64,000 nt of DNA, taken from NCBI RefSeq assembly GCF_000313565.1, contig NZ_HE578930.1:124001-188000 (forward strand), in the 5' to 3' direction. Positions 3,503-39,978 of the stretch are shown one piece after another. This stretch comes from Dielma fastidiosa. Lineage in GTDB: Bacteria > Bacillota_I > Bacilli_A > Erysipelotrichales > Erysipelotrichaceae. The first letter of the stretch is position 1; every line of letters begins with the position of its first letter. Under the pieces are notes generated by a model. That model saw only the letters and a program-made list of their open reading frames with translations. It was not told the DNA's origin and ran no database searches. Position numbers and translations under genes: made by a program.

Positions 3503-4189
3503 TTATAATTCCTGTATATTTCCTTGTTTATCAGCTAATAATACACTGAGCTTCAGCTGTTTTTTCACCACTGGAGAAATCTCGTTCCACTGTCTGCGGG
3601 TCATTGGTGAATCATTAAATGCCAGACTATAATGAATTGAAGGGTCCTGAATTTTTGTAATTAATTCGGTGACTTTACTAGGCAGTGTCTGCTTTCTTCC
3701 CCTTTTAATTCCCTGAACATTGATCACCCAGCGTTCATTCTCATGCTGAGCTAATATTTCATTTTTAATTTCTGTATAATCCCAACCATGCTCATCCAGC
3801 CATGAACGGATCAATTTACTCAAATCCTCCGTACTGCGTTTCATTTTCTGCTTTTTAGCCAATGCCTTTTCTTCCGGTGACTTGCTTGGTCTTCCGCGCT
3901 TCTTACTTGGGAATAAACGTTCCCGGCTGTCTAATTCATCTGTACGATATAGAATTACCAAATGTGAACCAAATCCTGTCTGCCCTTTTGGTCTTCTCAG
4001 AATTTCATCCCCCGTCAATGCCAGCTTATACATCGCCTGACAGCATGTCGGCATCGTCGCGTGATTTGGTGACACCTCCGCATGCAGCCCTTTGGAAGAA
4101 ATTTCGATCGTTTTTAACCCCGCCTTGGCTGCATCTTGTTTTTTCTTTTCTAAAATTTCTAAGTAATCTTTAATACCTGGACCTTTCAT
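3503..4189 (-). CDS. Uncharacterised basic protein with an AT-hook-like motif
   Basis: I do not recognise this 228-residue protein. It is soluble, rich in Lys and charged residues, and has no membrane segment. Around residues 96-112 it has KKRGRPSKSPEEKALAKK, a match to the RGRP core of AT-hook minor-groove binders, so nucleic-acid binding is possible. A second basic stretch, KRGRKQ, occurs near residue 167. The start at 4189 is supported by AAGGAGG 8 nt upstream; an upstream in-frame TTG would place the ribosome site inside the gene. It is divergent from an HNH nuclease gene across about 126 bp, so the two could be co-controlled. Confidence 0.7.
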   Translation of the reverse strand: MKGPGIKDYLEILEKKKQDAAKAGLKTIEISSKGLHAEVSPNHATMPTCCQAMYKLALTGDEILRRPKGQTGFGSHLVILYRTDELDSRERLFPSKKRGRPSKSPEEKALAKKQKMKRSTEDLSKLIRSWLDEHGWDYTEIKNEILAQHENERWVINVQGIKRGRKQTLPSKVTELITKIQDPSIHYSLAFNDSPMTRRQWNEISPVVKKQLKLSVLLADKQGNIQEL

Positions 4190-4289
4190 TTCGAAATCCT
4201 CCTTCAATTGCTACTATTGTAGCGCTTTGGTTTTGTCGAAATCACGCACATAGTGTCACTGATATGAAAAAGAATATCAAAATTTGATG

Positions 4290-4295: not shown

Positions 4296-4315
4296 AGGTA
4301 AAAGAGGTGATTTTC

Positions 4316-5353
4316 ATGAACAAGAATATCATAAAGCGTATTTTAAATCTGATTGACACGCTGGAAATTAATAAAACTTCAATTCGTTCCCTGATCTCAC
4401 AACTGGAAAAAGAGTTAAAATTACAGTTTTGTGAAACCAGCCGGGACAGTATTGAAGAAGTGATCAGAATTCTTCAGGCCACCGGCAACCTTAAAACGCT
4501 GGAGGACGGCATCGATCTGTCACAGCCGGCAACTGTTTATGCGAAAAGCTATGAGAAATCTGAATGTGAAGCCGCTGCCTTGTTTGAATGCTGCATCCGT
4601 GAAATGAAATATCGTCAAGTCCTTTTATCCTATCTGGATCTTACTTTTCATCCGATTGATCTGATGGCTGATCTTGGCTGTGAGGATCTTGTCTATTTGA
4701 TGCAGAACAGTATCTTATTTATTGAAGTAGACGAAGCCCTGTGCCGTTTTAATCCTAACCTGAAACAATATATTGAATGGGTTCTTGAAGATTATGAAAA
4801 TAAACGGCCGATTATTTCAAGCTGTGTCCGTGCTTTATACACGCGTGACATTTACCGCGCTAAGAAAAAGCTGGAAATGCGCAACACTGATTATAAAATG
4901 ATTGCTTATGACAGCTGTGATGTAATTTTGGATATCCTGCCTGCGATGGGGATTCCTGTTGATCGTGATGAATCGAAAGAGCTGCAGACTTTTTTCAAGG
5001 ACTGCCTGTTCAATGAGTTTAACCATTGCTGCGCGATCTGCGGTATCCATCTGCCGCAGATGCTGATTGCCAGTCATATTAAACCATTCCGTGACTGTGC
5101 CCATGTTTATGAAGCGATGGATAACAACAACGGCCTGCTGCTGTGCCGCAATCATGATTATTTGTTTGATCAGGGATATATCAGCTTTGAAGAAAACGGT
5201 CAGCTGATCATCTGTTCAGAATTATTAAATGATCCGCATTTTAAAGCGTATGGTATTAACACAGCTATTCGGTTAAAGGAACGCTACTGCACTCAGAGCC
5301 GGGTTAAATTTTTCAAATATCACAAGAAAAACTACTTTAGAAAGCAAAAATAA
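4316..5353 (+). CDS. HNH-endonuclease domain protein
   Basis: A 345-residue protein. Residues 1-225 are helical and of unknown function. Residues about 236-305 form an HNH nuclease domain of the kind found at the C-terminus of McrA-like and restriction-linked proteins: paired Cys in CCAICG, then ASHIKPF, then NNNGLLLCRNHDYLFDQGYISF, giving the metal-binding Cys/His set and the catalytic His. ATG at 4316 follows AGAGGTG by 7 nt, preferred over the overlapping GTG at 4307. No methyltransferase gene is adjacent, so it is an orphan nuclease or is partnered only by the divergent basic protein. The DNA target is unknown. Confidence 0.82.
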   Translation: MNKNIIKRILNLIDTLEINKTSIRSLISQLEKELKLQFCETSRDSIEEVIRILQATGNLKTLEDGIDLSQPATVYAKSYEKSECEAAALFECCIREMKYRQVLLSYLDLTFHPIDLMADLGCEDLVYLMQNSILFIEVDEALCRFNPNLKQYIEWVLEDYENKRPIISSCVRALYTRDIYRAKKKLEMRNTDYKMIAYDSCDVILDILPAMGIPVDRDESKELQTFFKDCLFNEFNHCCAICGIHLPQMLIASHIKPFRDCAHVYEAMDNNNGLLLCRNHDYLFDQGYISFEENGQLIICSELLNDPHFKAYGINTAIRLKERYCTQSRVKFFKYHKKNYFRKQK

Positions 5354-5373
5354 AAAGACCTCACAGGGTCTTT
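5354..5373. terminator. Bidirectional terminator between HNH and divIC ends
   Basis: AAAGACC / GGTCTTT flanked by A-rich sequence on the left and T-rich sequence on the right, between two convergent genes. Confidence 0.8.
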
Positions 5374-5380
5374 CTTTAAT

Positions 5381-5698
5381 TTACTTTCCGTCTGATGGTT
5401 CAAGTGAAAATACCTGTTCACCATCTTGTGAAACCAGCAGTTTTCCACGCGCATAACGCTTCACATAGTCAGGATTCTGCAGCTTCTCTTTTTCTTCTTC
5501 AAGATCAGCACGCTCAGCCTCTATTTCACTCGCCACAACCTGTGCTTCCGCAAGGTTTTGCTGTAACTCTCTAGTTGTCATGACTTCATTGAAGACATTG
5601 TAAATAAAGATACATGAAAAGGCAATAAGAACAACGTTCTTTGCGTGAGACAGTAATTTGCTACGCTTCTTGTTGCCGGATGCTTTCGCATTATCCAT
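5381..5698 (-). CDS. divIC: DivIC/FtsB-type septum protein, internal start within the composite gene
   Basis: This is the alternative product: ATG at 5698 (MDNAKASGNK), 105 residues, preceded by GGGAGG at 7 nt. Size, single N-terminal membrane helix, extracytoplasmic coiled coil and conserved NPDYVKRYARGKL match DivIC/FtsB, which with FtsL and DivIB/FtsQ supports septal peptidoglycan synthesis. Vegetative cells need DivIC, while YabQ is made only in the sporulating mother cell in Bacillus, so an independent start makes biological sense. A dedicated promoter could not be identified within the yabQ part. Confidence 0.75.
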   Translation of the reverse strand: MDNAKASGNKKRSKLLSHAKNVVLIAFSCIFIYNVFNEVMTTRELQQNLAEAQVVASEIEAERADLEEEKEKLQNPDYVKRYARGKLLVSQDGEQVFSLEPSDGK

Positions 5699-6088
5699 TT
5701 CTTGTCCTCCCTTTTTTAAGCCTACCCTACTTGTTATTATAGCATACATTTTCTTTTTGACAAGCCTGACAGAGTGAACAATTGGTTTAAAAAGTGATAT
5801 AAATCTAATATAAAAGGGCAAAAATAGTAAATAAATCCATTTATAGAAGCAGTAGAAGCCAATCGCAAAGAGCGCTATACAGTAAATCTGGGTTTCACCG
5901 CCATTAATTTGATAGAGACAATAATAAAAAACACACGTTGCAGACAAGGTTAACAGTGTCGTCCAAAAACAGCGGGCAAGCCTTGAGAAACGAGCGCTGA
6001 TCAATGAATATAGGCTGAAAATCATAGCAAACATAACACCGCCGAGAAAATGCGCAATCAATGACTGCAGCTGCTGCGGCAAAAGCAT
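5381..6088 (-). CDS. YabQ-DivIC in-frame composite gene
   Basis: One uninterrupted 235-codon frame carries two proteins that are separate neighbouring genes in Bacillus. Residues 1-125 look like YabQ, a sporulation membrane protein with about four hydrophobic segments. Residues 131-235 look like the division protein DivIC/FtsB: a basic N-terminus (NKKRSK), one membrane helix (NVVLIAFSCIFIYNVF), a coiled coil rich in Glu/Leu, then NPDYVKRYARGKL. The codons for KKGGQE just before Met131 spell AAGGGAGG, an ideal ribosome site 7 nt before ATG 5698-5696. DivIC can therefore be made alone from an internal start as well as fused to YabQ. The first ATG overlaps the yabP stop by one base (TAATG), implying coupling. 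Confidence 0.85.
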   Translation of the reverse strand: MLLPQQLQSLIAHFLGGVMFAMIFSLYSLISARFSRLARCFWTTLLTLSATCVFYYCLYQINGGETQIYCIALFAIGFYCFYKWIYLLFLPFYIRFISLFKPIVHSVRLVKKKMYAIITSRVGLKKGGQEMDNAKASGNKKRSKLLSHAKNVVLIAFSCIFIYNVFNEVMTTRELQQNLAEAQVVASEIEAERADLEEEKEKLQNPDYVKRYARGKLLVSQDGEQVFSLEPSDGK

Positions 6089-6387
6089 TATTTAAAAAGC
6101 CTGCTGATCAGTGATTCCTTGCCGTTTCCTTTCTTATTGGTGATGTATTCAATTGAATCAATAACACCCTTTATGATTACATCGCCATGATCAGTATCCA
6201 TCTTGGCAAGGGTTAAATCTTTACCATGCACGACCATCCAGCCCTGTGATGTATCCATTAAAAATTCATTCGCGTCAAAGCTGTCAATTAATTTTACACC
6301 TGAAAGTTCTAATACTTTTCTGTCTTTAAGCGACAGGTTATGGTAAGGATTGGTTTCAAAGTGGAAGCCATTTGCTGTATCATTCAT
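6088..6387 (-). CDS. yabP: Sporulation protein YabP
   Basis: A 99-residue soluble protein with the YabP/YqfC family pattern: HNLSLKDRKVLELSGVKLIDSFD at the start and a repeated beta pattern ending in IIKGVIDSIEYI. In Bacillus YabP and YabQ are made under SigE and are linked to spore cortex formation. AGGAGG precedes the ATG. The stop codon overlaps the ATG of the YabQ-DivIC frame. Only 41 bp separate it from the AraC gene upstream on the same strand, so its promoter is either in that short gap or inside the AraC gene; I see no clear SigE site. Confidence 0.88.
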   Translation of the reverse strand: MNDTANGFHFETNPYHNLSLKDRKVLELSGVKLIDSFDANEFLMDTSQGWMVVHGKDLTLAKMDTDHGDVIIKGVIDSIEYITNKKGNGKESLISRLFK

Positions 6388-6428
6388 AGATATCCCTCCT
6401 GCTATATCCTATGAAATTATTCACTTTC

Positions 6429-7319
6429 TTATGCGTTTAATTTTGTCTGATTGATTTGCTGCTTGCGAAAATCAGAAGGACTCTGTTTGTAATATTTACG
6501 AAATGTCTCTGCATAATAGCTGGCACTGCCAAAGCCTGTAATTAAAGCAATTTCACTCACCGTAAAATCAGTATCCCGCAGATAGTCAAGACTCTTATTC
6601 AATCGATATTGGTTTAGGTAAGCAATCGGTGTCTGTGTGAAAAACTTTTTAAATAACTGACAGCATTTACTCTCCCCAACTGAACCCGCCGCTGCTATTT
6701 CTTTTAAAGTTATCGTTTCCGCATAATTTTTCTGAATATAACCAACCATGTTGCGGATGATTGTCAGATTGCCTGACTGTTTTTTCAGCACTGTTTCAAC
6801 AGGCAGATTATCGCAAAGATAAAACCAAATGGCAGAAAAAGCAGCCTGACAATACAAAGGGGATGCGTTTTTATGTCTGTTTTCATAGATAGCAACAATC
6901 TGTTTGAGGATTTCAGACTGCCAGTCAGTATGCTTATTCAATTTGACATAAGGCAGTGCGTCATTATTGATTAAGGGTGAAACAAATTCCTGTTCATATG
7001 CTAATGTTGTACATAGCAGCAGCGGATGAAATAAAATACAGATATAGTCACAGTCCTTTTGCTCATTTGAAAAACCATAATGTACCTGTCTTGAATTGAC
7101 AAATATTCCTTCTCTCTCATGCAGTCGGATTATATTGCCATTCACATTGTAATCCATGAAGCCGCTTATTATATAGATAAGTTCAATATCATCATGCCAG
7201 TGACTCGGAGCTGTATAGTTCAGACACTGAGAAAGCATTGCCCTGCGGATATAGATTGGATAATTCAGTGAATCATAGTGTACCTTTTCTGATCGATCAT
7301 CCTTTAGTTCAATTGTCAT
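6429..7319 (-). CDS. AraC-family transcriptional regulator
   Basis: A 296-residue regulator. Residues 1-150 are a cupin-like sensor domain, with SHWHDDIELIYIISG carrying the usual His/Glu pair. The last 100 residues hold two HTH motifs of the AraC type, ending in EIALITGFGSASYYAETFRKYYKQSPSDFRK. This class usually senses a sugar and activates nearby genes. The ATG at 7319 is chosen because GAGGTGA lies 5 nt before it; a GTG three codons upstream overlaps that site. It is divergent from the PHP phosphatase gene across 111 bp, a possible target. The ligand is unknown. Confidence 0.92.
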   Translation of the reverse strand: MTIELKDDRSEKVHYDSLNYPIYIRRAMLSQCLNYTAPSHWHDDIELIYIISGFMDYNVNGNIIRLHEREGIFVNSRQVHYGFSNEQKDCDYICILFHPLLLCTTLAYEQEFVSPLINNDALPYVKLNKHTDWQSEILKQIVAIYENRHKNASPLYCQAAFSAIWFYLCDNLPVETVLKKQSGNLTIIRNMVGYIQKNYAETITLKEIAAAGSVGESKCCQLFKKFFTQTPIAYLNQYRLNKSLDYLRDTDFTVSEIALITGFGSASYYAETFRKYYKQSPSDFRKQQINQTKLNA

Positions 7320-35102: not shown

Positions 35103-35384
35103 TTATTCATTTTGCGTCGAAAAATCATGATTTTCGGTTTTTTCTTCAATAATTTCAAACATTAAAGCCGCATCAGACTTAGAAACCTGCTTAGAAAGCA
35201 TCAAAACTCTGACTGTCAGTTCACGGTATCCGAAGACAATCGTTATGATATCTCCAACCTTGACCTCACTGCTCGGTTTTGCTATCCTGCCATTGATCAG
35301 TACACGTTCATTATCCGCCAGTTCTTTTGAAACGGTTCGCCGCTTCAGAATTCTGGCTACTTTTAGGTACTTATCTAAACGCAT
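35103..35384 (-). CDS. rqcP: S4-domain RNA-binding protein RqcP (YabO)
   Basis: A 93-residue protein that is essentially one S4 RNA-binding fold: MRLDKYLKVARILKRRTVSKELADNERVLINGRIAKPSSEVKVGD. The family (YabO/RqcP, related to Hsp15) binds stalled 50S subunits and helps RqcH add Ala tails in ribosome quality control. Start at 35384 follows GAGGTGA. In Bacillus it lies directly before yabP; here that neighbour is about 29 kb away. It is 27 bp downstream of spoVT on the same strand. Confidence 0.9.
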   Translation of the reverse strand: MRLDKYLKVARILKRRTVSKELADNERVLINGRIAKPSSEVKVGDIITIVFGYRELTVRVLMLSKQVSKSDAALMFEIIEEKTENHDFSTQNE

Positions 35385-35411
35385 GCCATCACCTCGCAAC
35401 TATTTTAACAT

Positions 35412-35900
35412 TTAAACCTCATATTTGCGAGATAAAAGTTGCGCAAACGCCGCGACACAGCGATTCTCCTTCACATCTACAGGCTCATTGCTCAATAAAA
35501 CAAAACTGCCCTGCCAGTAGCTTTCAACCACAACGGGAAAGAAACAGCCATCATAAAGTGACGCGTCATTCTCAAAAATCTTTTCCTTGGTAAAGGGAGT
35601 ATCCCGGTAAACAACCGCATGTGAGAACAATGATTTCGCGCAGGGCTGCTGGGTTCCCGTTACCTCATCCTTAATAAACAGCACTTTCTTGTTTAATACA
35701 CTCTGCAATGTTTCACACATATCCTGAATTTCACGCATATGTTTATCAAGCAGCTCATATTTCTGCAGAATAATTTTATCATTTTCAATATAAAACTCGA
35801 TGGAATCGCCTTCTTTTAATCGATATTGTTTTCTGATCTCCTTGGGTATAACTAAACGTCCAAGATCATCTAAACGGCGAATGATACCTGTTGCCTTCAT
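35412..35900 (-). CDS. spoVT: Stage V sporulation protein T (AbrB-family regulator)
   Basis: A 162-residue regulator. Residues 1-50 are the swapped-hairpin AbrB DNA-binding domain: MKATGIIRRLDDLGRLVIPKEIRK and LKEGDSIEFYIENDKIILQKY. Residues 55-160 form a GAF-like domain, as in SpoVT, which tunes SigG-dependent genes in the forespore. The length is slightly below the Bacillus protein (178). Its place between mfd and rqcP is the usual one, though yabM and yabN, which lie there in Bacillus, are missing. Confidence 0.92.
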   Translation of the reverse strand: MKATGIIRRLDDLGRLVIPKEIRKQYRLKEGDSIEFYIENDKIILQKYELLDKHMREIQDMCETLQSVLNKKVLFIKDEVTGTQQPCAKSLFSHAVVYRDTPFTKEKIFENDASLYDGCFFPVVVESYWQGSFVLLSNEPVDVKENRCVAAFAQLLSRKYEV

Positions 35901-35968
35901 TCATTCACACTCCTTGCACGTTTAGTATTGGCAAAGAATGAGCTTTTATAACCGATTAATGCAAATTT

Positions 35969-38900
35969 TTACTCTCTGACAACAGTTCCGCTCATTTCCA
36001 GAACCTCAATGACCTGTTTCAGCCAGTTCTTGTTTTTAGGAAAGCGGATTTTAATCTTATTTTGTGTATAACGCAGTACAATATCACGGGATAAAGCTGT
36101 GATTTGTTCAAATAGCTTCACACCGTCAGCATGCTTCGACCACTGCTCTGTAAAGGTAAGCTCGGCATCCTTGGCATTTTCTTTGAAATTTTCTACATTT
36201 GCCTCATTAATCAGTATATCAAGACGCTTCTTTTCAAACAGCAGCTGCACAGATTTAGGCAGTGAACCATAGTTATCCTCAATCATATCCATCATTGCCA
36301 GCAGTTCTTCCTTAGTCTCAACTTTATCGATTTGCTGATAAAGCGTAATCTTTTCATAATCCTGATCGGTAAAGGTACTTGGGATATAGGCGTCGACATT
36401 GACATTGGCACGTTTGATTTCCTTTGGCACGACTTTTTTAATTCCCTTTTGTTCATTAATCGCGTCATGCAGCATTTCAATATACATATCAATACCGATC
36501 GTATCAATAAAGCCAGCCTGCTGCGGGCCAAGCATATCACCGGCGCCGCGGATCGTTAAGTCACGCATGGCAATCTTATAACCAGAGCCAAGCTGCGTAA
36601 ACTCTTTAATTGATTTTAAACGCTTCGTCGCGATTTCCGAAAGCTGCTTCTGCGGTGAATAAAGCAGATATGCGTATGCTAAGCGGTCTGAACGGCCGAC
36701 TCTGCCCTTAATCTGATAGAGCTGACTTAACCCAAACTTATCCGCATCCTCGATAATAATGGTATTGGCATTAGGGATATCGATACCGGTTTCAATGATT
36801 GTGGTGCAGACTAATACCTGATATTCATTGTTGGTAAAACGCATCATGACATCTTCGATTTCTTCTCTGTCCATCTGGCCATGAGCGATTCCGATTTCCA
36901 TATCCAATTCATTGCGCAGCTTCGTTGCCGTCGCATAAATATTCTTAACATTGTTATATAAATAGAACACCTGTCCGTCACGGGCAACCTCGCGCTGAAT
37001 AATTTCTTTAATTAAATTAAAATTCTTCTCAACAACATAGGTCTGCACCGGCATACGGTTCATCGGCGGCGTATCTAGCTGAGAGAGTGAGCGCACACCA
37101 ATTAATGACATCTGCAAAGTACGCGGAATCGGTGTCGCACTAAGTGACAGAACATCGATACCGGTTCTTAATTCCTTGATTTTCTCTTTGTGCTGAACAC
37201 CAAAACGCTGCTCCTCATCGATAATCAAAAAGCCAAGATCCTTAAAAACGACATCCTTGGACAATAAACGATGGGTGCCGATCAATATATCAACATTGCC
37301 ATCCTTCAGATCCTGAAGAATTTTCTTCTGTTCCTGCGGCGGTACAAAACGATTTAATACTTCGATACGCACCGGATAGTTTCTAAAACGTTTCTTGAAG
37401 GTCTTAAAATGCTGCTGCGAAAGAATGGTGGTTGGACACAGATAAGCTACCTGCTTATTGTCAACCACAGCCTTGAAAGCCGCACGGATTGCGACCTCTG
37501 TCTTACCAAAGCCAACATCACCGCAAAGCAGTCTGTCCATTGGCTTCGCTGATTCCATATCTTGTTTAATTTCATCCACCGCTTTTTTCTGATCCGGTGT
37601 TAAATCATAATCAAAATCATCCTCAAACTGAAGCTGGTAAGGTGTATCCTTAGAAAAAGCGAAGCCGATATCTTCACTGCGCAATGAATAAAGAGCAACC
37701 AACCGCTGCGCAAGCTCGGCGACATTTTGACTGATGCGCTTCTTGGTCTTCTCCCATTCGCTAGAACCTAACTTATTCAGTTTCGGTGAAGCACCCTCCT
37801 TAGAAACAAATTTTCGAATCAGACGGAATTGCTCCAAAGGAATGAATAAAACATCATTATCTTTATAAATTACCTGCAGGAAGTCTTTGTGATGACCCTC
37901 AATCTCCTTGGTAACAATCCCGTTATACATACCCACACCATGCTGGTTATGTACGACATAATCACCTTTTTCAAGCTGAAGATAATCATCAAGAACTTCA
38001 CCTTGTTTAAATTTATTCGTATAACGGCCAAGCTTTTTCTGTTCATGAAAGATTTCTTTAGATGAATAAACAACGATCTTTTCTTCGGTTAGTTCAAACC
38101 CTTCTGCCAGCTTTTTGACACAGAGTGAAATACCCTCTGGAATTTTATCATTTTCATCAATCATTTGATATCGGATCTCATGATCATTAAAATACTTTTT
38201 CACAATACCGATTTCTGAATGATCTAAACAGAACAGCACGCTTTTTTTCTTGCTTTCCTTTACAGCCATGTCCAAGCATTTATCTAAAGAAAGCTCAGGG
38301 CGCGGCAGCTGCAGAAAACCGCTGACGATTGGCTGTTCTATGTTCACAAACAAATTAACATGAATACAGTCACGGCCGGCAGTCAGCTTATCGATTGAAT
38401 TAAACTGTGTATAGACAGGCAACCCCTGACCTGTGGCATTCAGCTCCTGAATGTAATCAATAGTTTCTTCATTGACTTTTTTCTCAACTTCATGAATTTC
38501 CTCATCAGTAGAAAGAATGATACATGCGTCTTGGGCATAATCCAGCAATGAACTATGCTGATCCAGCAAAGCATAATAACGGTATAGGTGATTTTCTCTT
38601 TGATGGTTGCTTAAAGCATCAAAATCATTCTCAATAAAAATATCAAACTGACGCTGTATAGCTGCTTCTGCCTGACGCTGTGCTTTCTTTTTCAGCACAT
38701 TGCCCTTTTCGATGATCGTGCTGATATCTTCATCGGTAAACAGCAAATCCGTAGCCGGTATGATTTTCACATGGTCACGTTTTTCAATCGTTCGCTGAGT
38801 TGCCGGATCAAAACAGCGGATACTCTCGATAACAGTATCAAAGAATTCAATACGGATCGGATAATCCTCATTCATTGAATAAACATCGATAATACCGCCC

Positions 38901-39409
38901 CTTGATGCAAAGCATAACGGCTGGTCAACTCTTGACACGTGCTCATAACCTGCCATAAACAGCTTCATTTTTAATGTATCCATGCTGATTTCATCATCAA
39001 CCTTCAGTTCCATGCTTACAGCCTTGAATAATTCCGGTGAGGGCATAAAACGCATCAGCGCGCCGGTATGAGCCACAACAATTTTAGCCTTGCCTTCAAG
39101 CATCGCATTCATGGTTTCCAGCTGTACCGCTTTACTCTCCGGAGAGGCGGCAATGGCCTCAACTCTCAGCGATTCCTCCACGACAAAAGGCAGCACCTCA
39201 ACATCAACGAGGGGGGTCAGCCGCTCGATCAGCTTCTGTGCTGTATAAACATTATTCTTCACTATCAGTAATGACTGCCGGCTTTGTCTGTATAATGCCG
39301 CATAAAGCAGTGCTTCTTCAGTTAATGATAAATTCCCTAATGAGCTTTCTTTGCGCAGCAGACTCTCGACCGCTGGATTCTTCACCAGTTCATTTAATAA
39401 ACAATTCAT
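35969..39409 (-). CDS. mfd: Transcription-repair coupling factor Mfd
   Basis: A 1146-residue protein of normal length. In order: UvrB-like UvrA-binding domains (about 1-340), the RNA-polymerase interaction domain (about 470-550, [19 protein letters not shown]), and the RecG-like translocase with Walker [14 protein letters not shown] near residue 630, the DEEQRFG box near 735, and the motif VI region GRVGRSDR. The C-terminal regulatory domain is complete. Mfd removes stalled RNA polymerase and recruits UvrA. It starts 2 bp after the pth stop, so the genes are co-transcribed. Confidence 0.97.
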
Positions 39410-39411
39410 AA

Positions 39412-39978
39412 CTAAGCGTCCTTCTGATTGTATTTATTCATCACATCCGCAAAAGGACGGTCGATGAATTCAATAGCCGCACTGGCTGCTTTATCTCTGG
39501 CCGCTTCAAACAAAGCCCGGTCGGCCTTTGGAAATTTACCAAGTACATAATCAGCCGTCAGCATCAGCGGATCTTTGCCGATGCCAATGCGTATTCGTTT
39601 AAAATCCTGCGTACCTAAATGAGCGATGATGTTCTTCAAGCCATTCTGGCCGCCGCTTGAGCCCTTTTCTCTTAAACGAATCTTACCCACCGGCAGATCT
39701 AAATCATCGACAAGCACCAAAATATCGCTTACTGGTATATTATAAAAACGCGCGCATTCACCTACCGCTTCTCCGGAAAGGTTCATATAAGTCTGCGGTT
39801 TCATCAGGATCACCGTTTCACCCTTGACCTTGACATTACCGATCAGCGCTTTAAATTTTTTTGTATTTACATCTGTGTTCAACCTTGAAGCAACCTCATC
39901 AAGTGTCATGAAACCCGTGTTATGACGCGTTTTTTCATAATCTCTGCCTGGATTGCCAAGTCCTACGATCAATTTCAT
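39412..39978 (-). CDS. pth: Peptidyl-tRNA hydrolase
   Basis: A 188-residue enzyme that frees tRNA from peptides dropped by ribosomes. MKLIVGLGNPGRDYEKTRHNTGF carries the catalytic His20 and the flanking Asn; MKPQTYMNLSGE, VDDLDLPVGKIRLR and GSSGGQNGLKNI follow. Length is normal. A minus-strand TATAAT at 40006-40001 lies about 23 bp upstream, so the gene probably heads the pth-mfd-spoVT-rqcP operon. Confidence 0.97.
   Translation of the reverse strand: MKLIVGLGNPGRDYEKTRHNTGFMTLDEVASRLNTDVNTKKFKALIGNVKVKGETVILMKPQTYMNLSGEAVGECARFYNIPVSDILVLVDDLDLPVGKIRLREKGSSGGQNGLKNIIAHLGTQDFKRIRIGIGKDPLMLTADYVLGKFPKADRALFEAARDKAASAAIEFIDRPFADVMNKYNQKDA

Follow-up and report, generated by a model that had tools for sequence, protein, structure and literature searches.

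How can a reading frame that runs from a spore-cortex protein straight into a division protein still supply the division protein by itself? The question is raised by a locus in the window (the whole stretch of 64,000 nucleotides that was analysed), where YabQ and DivIC are joined. The original prediction was that no stop codon separates the two parts, and that the cell could make a YabQ-DivIC fusion during sporulation and free DivIC during growth.

The fused reading frame

The frame lies on the minus strand, a detail absent from that prediction. The absence of a stop is borne out, as the sequence is open from 6088 to 5381 with no internal stop. The gene order is yabP, then the YabQ part, then the DivIC part; yabP is directly upstream of yabQ, and its stop overlaps the yabQ start in TAATG. 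The features of this region are as follows.

6088-6387, minus strand: yabP (TIGR02892, 84.8 bits, cut-off 75.4)
5381-6088, minus strand: YabQ-DivIC open reading frame, 235 amino acids, the YabQ domain in frame with DivIC
5699-6088, minus strand: YabQ (ShfA) part, codons 1-130 including the linker KKGGQE; PF09578 and TIGR02893 above cut-off
5381-5698, minus strand: DivIC part, 105 amino acids with its own ATG; PF04977 above cut-off
5712-5717, minus strand: run of six A (A6) in the linker; the length of the leader between the -10 and the ATG is critical for the frame
5706-5714, minus strand: Shine-Dalgarno sequence AAAGGGAGG, 7 nt upstream of the ATG at 5698
5352-5375, both directions: terminator-like hairpin after divIC, common to a convergent HNH gene

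Both domains are complete in the fused frame, each above its curated cut-off. Spore_YabQ (Pfam PF09578) covers residues 11-85 with 38.8 bits (cut-off 27), the NCBIfam model TIGR02893 covers residues 3-85 with 51.4 bits (cut-off 32), and DivIC (Pfam PF04977) covers residues 154-229 with 47.2 bits (cut-off 28.9). Scored alone, the 105-residue DivIC part reaches 49.5 bits, slightly above its value within the fusion. The FtsL model TIGR02209 gives 22.3-24.4 bits, below the NCBIfam cut-off of 42.45.

TTAAAAAAGGGAGGACAAGAAATG codes for the linker LKKGGQE-M. GGGAGG ends at 5706 and is followed by ACAAGAA (7 nt) and then by the ATG at 5698-5696, in frame with yabQ. The claim that the KKGGQE codons conceal a Shine-Dalgarno sequence 7 nt ahead of an in-frame ATG is thus accurate in coordinates, linker and spacing. 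Comparable purine-rich sites precede divIC in relatives.

Judged by hydropathy only, the YabQ part has candidate transmembrane segments at about 14-32, 40-58 and 71-103, followed by a K/R-rich stretch; the loop that carries the linker holds 15 K/R against 2 D/E. The hydropathy of the DivIC part points to one transmembrane region (about 145-170) and then an acidic segment with 15 D/E and 9 K/R. In B. subtilis, YabQ is made under sigma-E, has a cytosolic C-terminus, and is sufficient as residues 1-103; YabQ-GFP goes to the forespore, and sfGFP-DivIC is found at septa (PMC13232292). The same paper names D25, R28, D45 and Y83 as polar residues within the membrane part of B. subtilis YabQ. Since the C-terminus of YabQ and the N-terminus of DivIC are both cytoplasmic, the chimera should insert sensibly. 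It may therefore be topologically sound, and it may make little difference which passenger is attached to the C-terminus.

The genome (3.6 Mb, 95 contigs of up to 457 kb, 98.5% complete, GC 40.3%) encodes SpoIVA and three SEDS proteins. In a genome search, the only DivIC above the cut-off was that at 5381-5698, so this locus must still supply free DivIC. A second DivIC-like match, in an open reading frame of 177 amino acids, was short and below the cut-off and was judged not to be DivIC.

Around the locus, a convergent HNH_2 endonuclease-like gene (4307-5353, plus strand) faces divIC, and between them lies the hairpin at 5352-5375, which could serve as a terminator for either direction. Nearby, an uncharacterised protein without an NCBIfam match (3503-4207, minus strand; MKGPGIK.YLE...CCQAMYK...GFGSHL) is encoded, and the same protein occurs near divIC in a distant family member (G246, contig stretch L036 from about 2320). 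The genes mfd and pth, an Hsp15-like gene and an AbrB/SpoVT-like gene (162 amino acids, under the SpoVT cut-off) lie at 35106-39978, about 30 kb from yabP-yabQ-divIC. The cluster known from B. subtilis appears to be split in the window.

Predicted promoters for growth and sporulation

One candidate promoter lies inside yabQ and another upstream of yabP.

5736-5763, minus strand: sigma-A-type promoter, with -35 TTGTCA at 5763-5758, a spacer of 16 nt and the extended -10 TGC-TATAAT
6406-6434, minus strand: sigma-E-like promoter, GCATAAGA and CATAGGAT separated by 13 nt, matching 9 of 11 consensus positions; like sites are found in relatives

The inner promoter is written in the last conserved codons of yabQ. 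Its -10 hexamer, TATAAT at 5741-5736, starts 43 nt upstream of the DivIC ATG. With 11 of 12 consensus matches plus the TG, it ranks first in a promoter scan of the window.

Similar sites are widespread. For 78% of family members the best promoter in the 110 nt upstream of divIC scored 9.5 or more, compared with 1.4% of 142 control stretches. TATAAT lies in frame 2 of yabQ in 31 of the 36 family pairs, in 20 of 21 from the sister family and in seven of nine further pairs from the class; the family members without it at the yabQ end in that frame are four separated pairs and G012. It mostly falls within the conserved ...(G/A)II... codons. In most family members a TTGnnA-like hexamer stands 16 nt upstream, and TG usually precedes TATAAT. 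Homologous sites occur in the Erysipelotrichales stretches L010-L048, L052-L071, L084 and L087.

The codons at the site read xxT ATA in 47 of 59 sequences, an underestimate, since the automatic choice of site took a neighbouring Ile pair in a few sequences. Elsewhere in yabQ, ATA makes up 26% of Ile codons, and T-ending codons 33-57%. Given this excess over codon usage, selection appears to maintain the embedded promoter over and above the protein sequence. The broader result is that yabQ carries a predicted promoter for growth throughout the order.

On the sporulation side, the -10 of the sigma-E-like promoter begins 26 nt upstream of the yabP ATG, and the match in the window is a moderate one. 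Scores of at least 9, against a consensus taken from general knowledge, were reached by 28 of 35 family members and by 25 of 175 control stretches (about 14%). In B. subtilis, yabPQ is controlled by sigma-E, whereas a separate internal promoter serves divIC (PMC1925097).

The window thus holds the sequence elements of a nested second product, namely a putative internal promoter and a Shine-Dalgarno sequence ahead of an in-frame start. Both are evident from sequence and conservation, and they are likely to be used. Together, the inner sigma-A-type promoter and the sigma-E-like yabP promoter strengthen the predicted pair of products, a fusion in sporulation and free DivIC in growth. Against this, a mother cell with extra DivIC could be harmed.

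The junction of yabQ and divIC in relatives

The window belongs to the Erysipelotrichaceae, and a DivIC alignment scan and a tree give Traorella as the closest named genus; the genus of the window is represented by one genome in the comparison. Among 68 yabQ-divIC pairs examined, only that of the window is an in-frame fusion. Within the family (36 pairs), 28 overlap in the +1 frame, three in +2 and four are separate; frame 0 is found in the window only. All 21 pairs from the sister family overlap, by 4-94 nt and in 20 cases in +2, and so do nine other pairs from the class, by 23-50 nt and always in +1.

In the window's own clade all three frames occur: Traorella is in +1 (as is a further Traorella pair, L095), the sister genome G266, whose DivIC is 60% identical to that of the window, is in +2, and the window is in 0. 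The overlap frame is therefore drifting in this clade. From the start of the -10 to the ATG there are 43 nt in the window, compared with 41, 44 or 47 in most family members, so that a single base in the leader separates overlap from fusion, and a mutated stop is not needed.

Other searches agree on the rarity of the arrangement. A close-relative scan of genome contigs with the fusion protein gave no match, as did a search of phage records, and none of the 20 loci in the DivIC alignment scan of genome contigs was fused. Stop-to-stop lengths of YabQ frames were also compared in larger samples, and no other long frame there turned out to be a fusion. Of the long frames checked as possible candidates, that of G034 owed its extra length to sequence upstream of YabQ; G276, G201 and G648 had no credible yabQ-divIC pair; in G724 the next open reading frame was not DivIC; and in G661, with a lengthened tail, DivIC overlaps in a different frame.

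Separately, in the genus g35 (L034, L038, L042 and L051) a gap of about 150-180 nt separates yabQ from divIC, and TATAAT lies outside yabQ. YabQ has a longer K/R-rich tail in this genus.

The loss of a stop codon that had been suggested was looked for in related genomes, and none of the 67 other pairs is fused; most relatives overlap out of frame. They point instead to a frame shift in an ancestral out-of-frame overlap. The suggested neutrality fares better: as the topology is tolerated by YabQ and DivIC alike, a neutral fusion is probable. The same count of 0/67 gives no support from conservation to a functional tie between division and the spore cortex.

Origin and meaning of the fusion

The preferred reading, with a probability of roughly 0.72, is that a real in-frame fusion arose as the frame of an ancestral yabQ/divIC overlap drifted, that free DivIC is made in growth and the fusion in sporulation, and that the fusion is tolerated rather than selected. 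During growth, RNA polymerase with sigma-A would start inside the C-terminal codons of yabQ, near 5729. The resulting mRNA would be short, with a leader of about 30 nt, and would yield only the free 105-residue DivIC from the ATG at 5698; as the promoter lies downstream of most of yabQ, this transcript could not encode the fusion. During sporulation, sigma-E would direct transcription of yabP-yabQ-divIC in the mother cell. As yabQ has no stop, YabQ would be made only as the 235-residue YabQ-DivIC, and some free DivIC may arise by internal initiation. The DivIC coiled coil would sit outside the membrane marked by YabQ. Most likely, frame drift produced the fusion recently and it has been tolerated, so that it is not a conserved device; the protein that results is probably a by-product which sporulating cells tolerate.

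The fusion could also be an error of sequencing or assembly in which one base is missing from the A6 run of the linker. A run of seven would stop YabQ at TAA and leave an 8-nt overlap with the DivIC start, the ordinary arrangement, and in place of 43 nt a spacing of 44 nt is common in the family. The change adjoins a homopolymer, and Dielma fastidiosa JC13 was sequenced by the 454 method (PMC3746426), so homopolymer errors would be a concern if the genome were the same. However, the frame also varies among the nearest relatives, and contigs are as long as 457 kb. In a screen of 464 kb of this genome (20 stretches and the window, with 452 open reading frames of at least 90 amino acids), none of the 14 pairs that looked most suspicious was evidently a split gene, although pairs with a member below 60 amino acids or more than 90 nt apart were missed. 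Where both members of a pair had a Pfam domain, either the two domains differed or each was complete; for a few members there was no domain. An error at this point is therefore unlikely when set against a base rate of one real case in 68, and the explanation as a whole is judged very improbable. It is unlikely, too, that the fusion exists on paper only, yabQ being unexpressed in an asporogenous organism that makes free DivIC alone. The predicted strong internal promoter and Shine-Dalgarno sequence would suit this, and Dielma fastidiosa, whose genus may be that of the window, has been described as non-sporulating (PMC3746426), but YabQ and YabP are intact and score like those of relatives, SpoIVA is present, and a sigma-E-like promoter stands upstream of yabP.

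An adaptive fusion would have YabQ bring the DivIC ectodomain between the forespore membranes, where it would recruit or activate a cortex synthase (SpoVE/SpoVD) or maintain synthesis of the division type at the engulfing septum. Its topology is coherent, both domains are intact and the genome has three SEDS proteins. Moreover, at least 89% of sporulating Bacillota have shfA (yabQ) next to divIC, and YabQ localises to sites of active wall synthesis (PMC13232292). Yet the fusion is seen in one genome only (1/68 pairs), one base suffices to create it, and B. subtilis can do without the YabQ tail, while deletion of spoVE or spoVD there leaves YabQ localisation unchanged (PMC13232292). Adaptation is accordingly thought quite unlikely.

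The closest known system is the yabMNOPQ-divIC-yabR operon of B. subtilis, which has the same gene order. There YabQ and DivIC are separate, whereas in the window they share one frame; the internal divIC promoter of B. subtilis is reported under sigma-X, while that of the window is of sigma-A type and lies in yabQ codons. Other Erysipelotrichales, such as Traorella, Longicatena and Amedibacillus, resemble the window in that the last part of yabQ contains the embedded promoter, the Shine-Dalgarno sequence and the start of DivIC. Unlike the window, their pairs are in +1 or +2, and yabQ stops inside divIC without a fusion. A further parallel is provided by nested genes with an internal start, in which one frame with two starts gives a full-length and a short product. 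The window would follow the same logic, except that an essential division gene forms the nested part and that the two products would serve separate cell programmes.

No reason is known for the proximity of YabQ and DivIC in most spore-formers, and a natural fusion offers an in vivo test of whether the two can act as one unit. It is very doubtful that the fusion is a sporulation-specific part of the divisome, in which YabQ goes to the outer forespore membrane and thereby brings the DivIC ectodomain to SpoVE/SpoVD, while growth reads plain DivIC from the inner promoter. If that were true, a division activator would now control cortex synthesis. A conserved promoter in the codons of yabQ would explain how an essential division gene survives overlaps and fusions, and keeping that promoter would be a selective force on the sequence of the YabQ tail.
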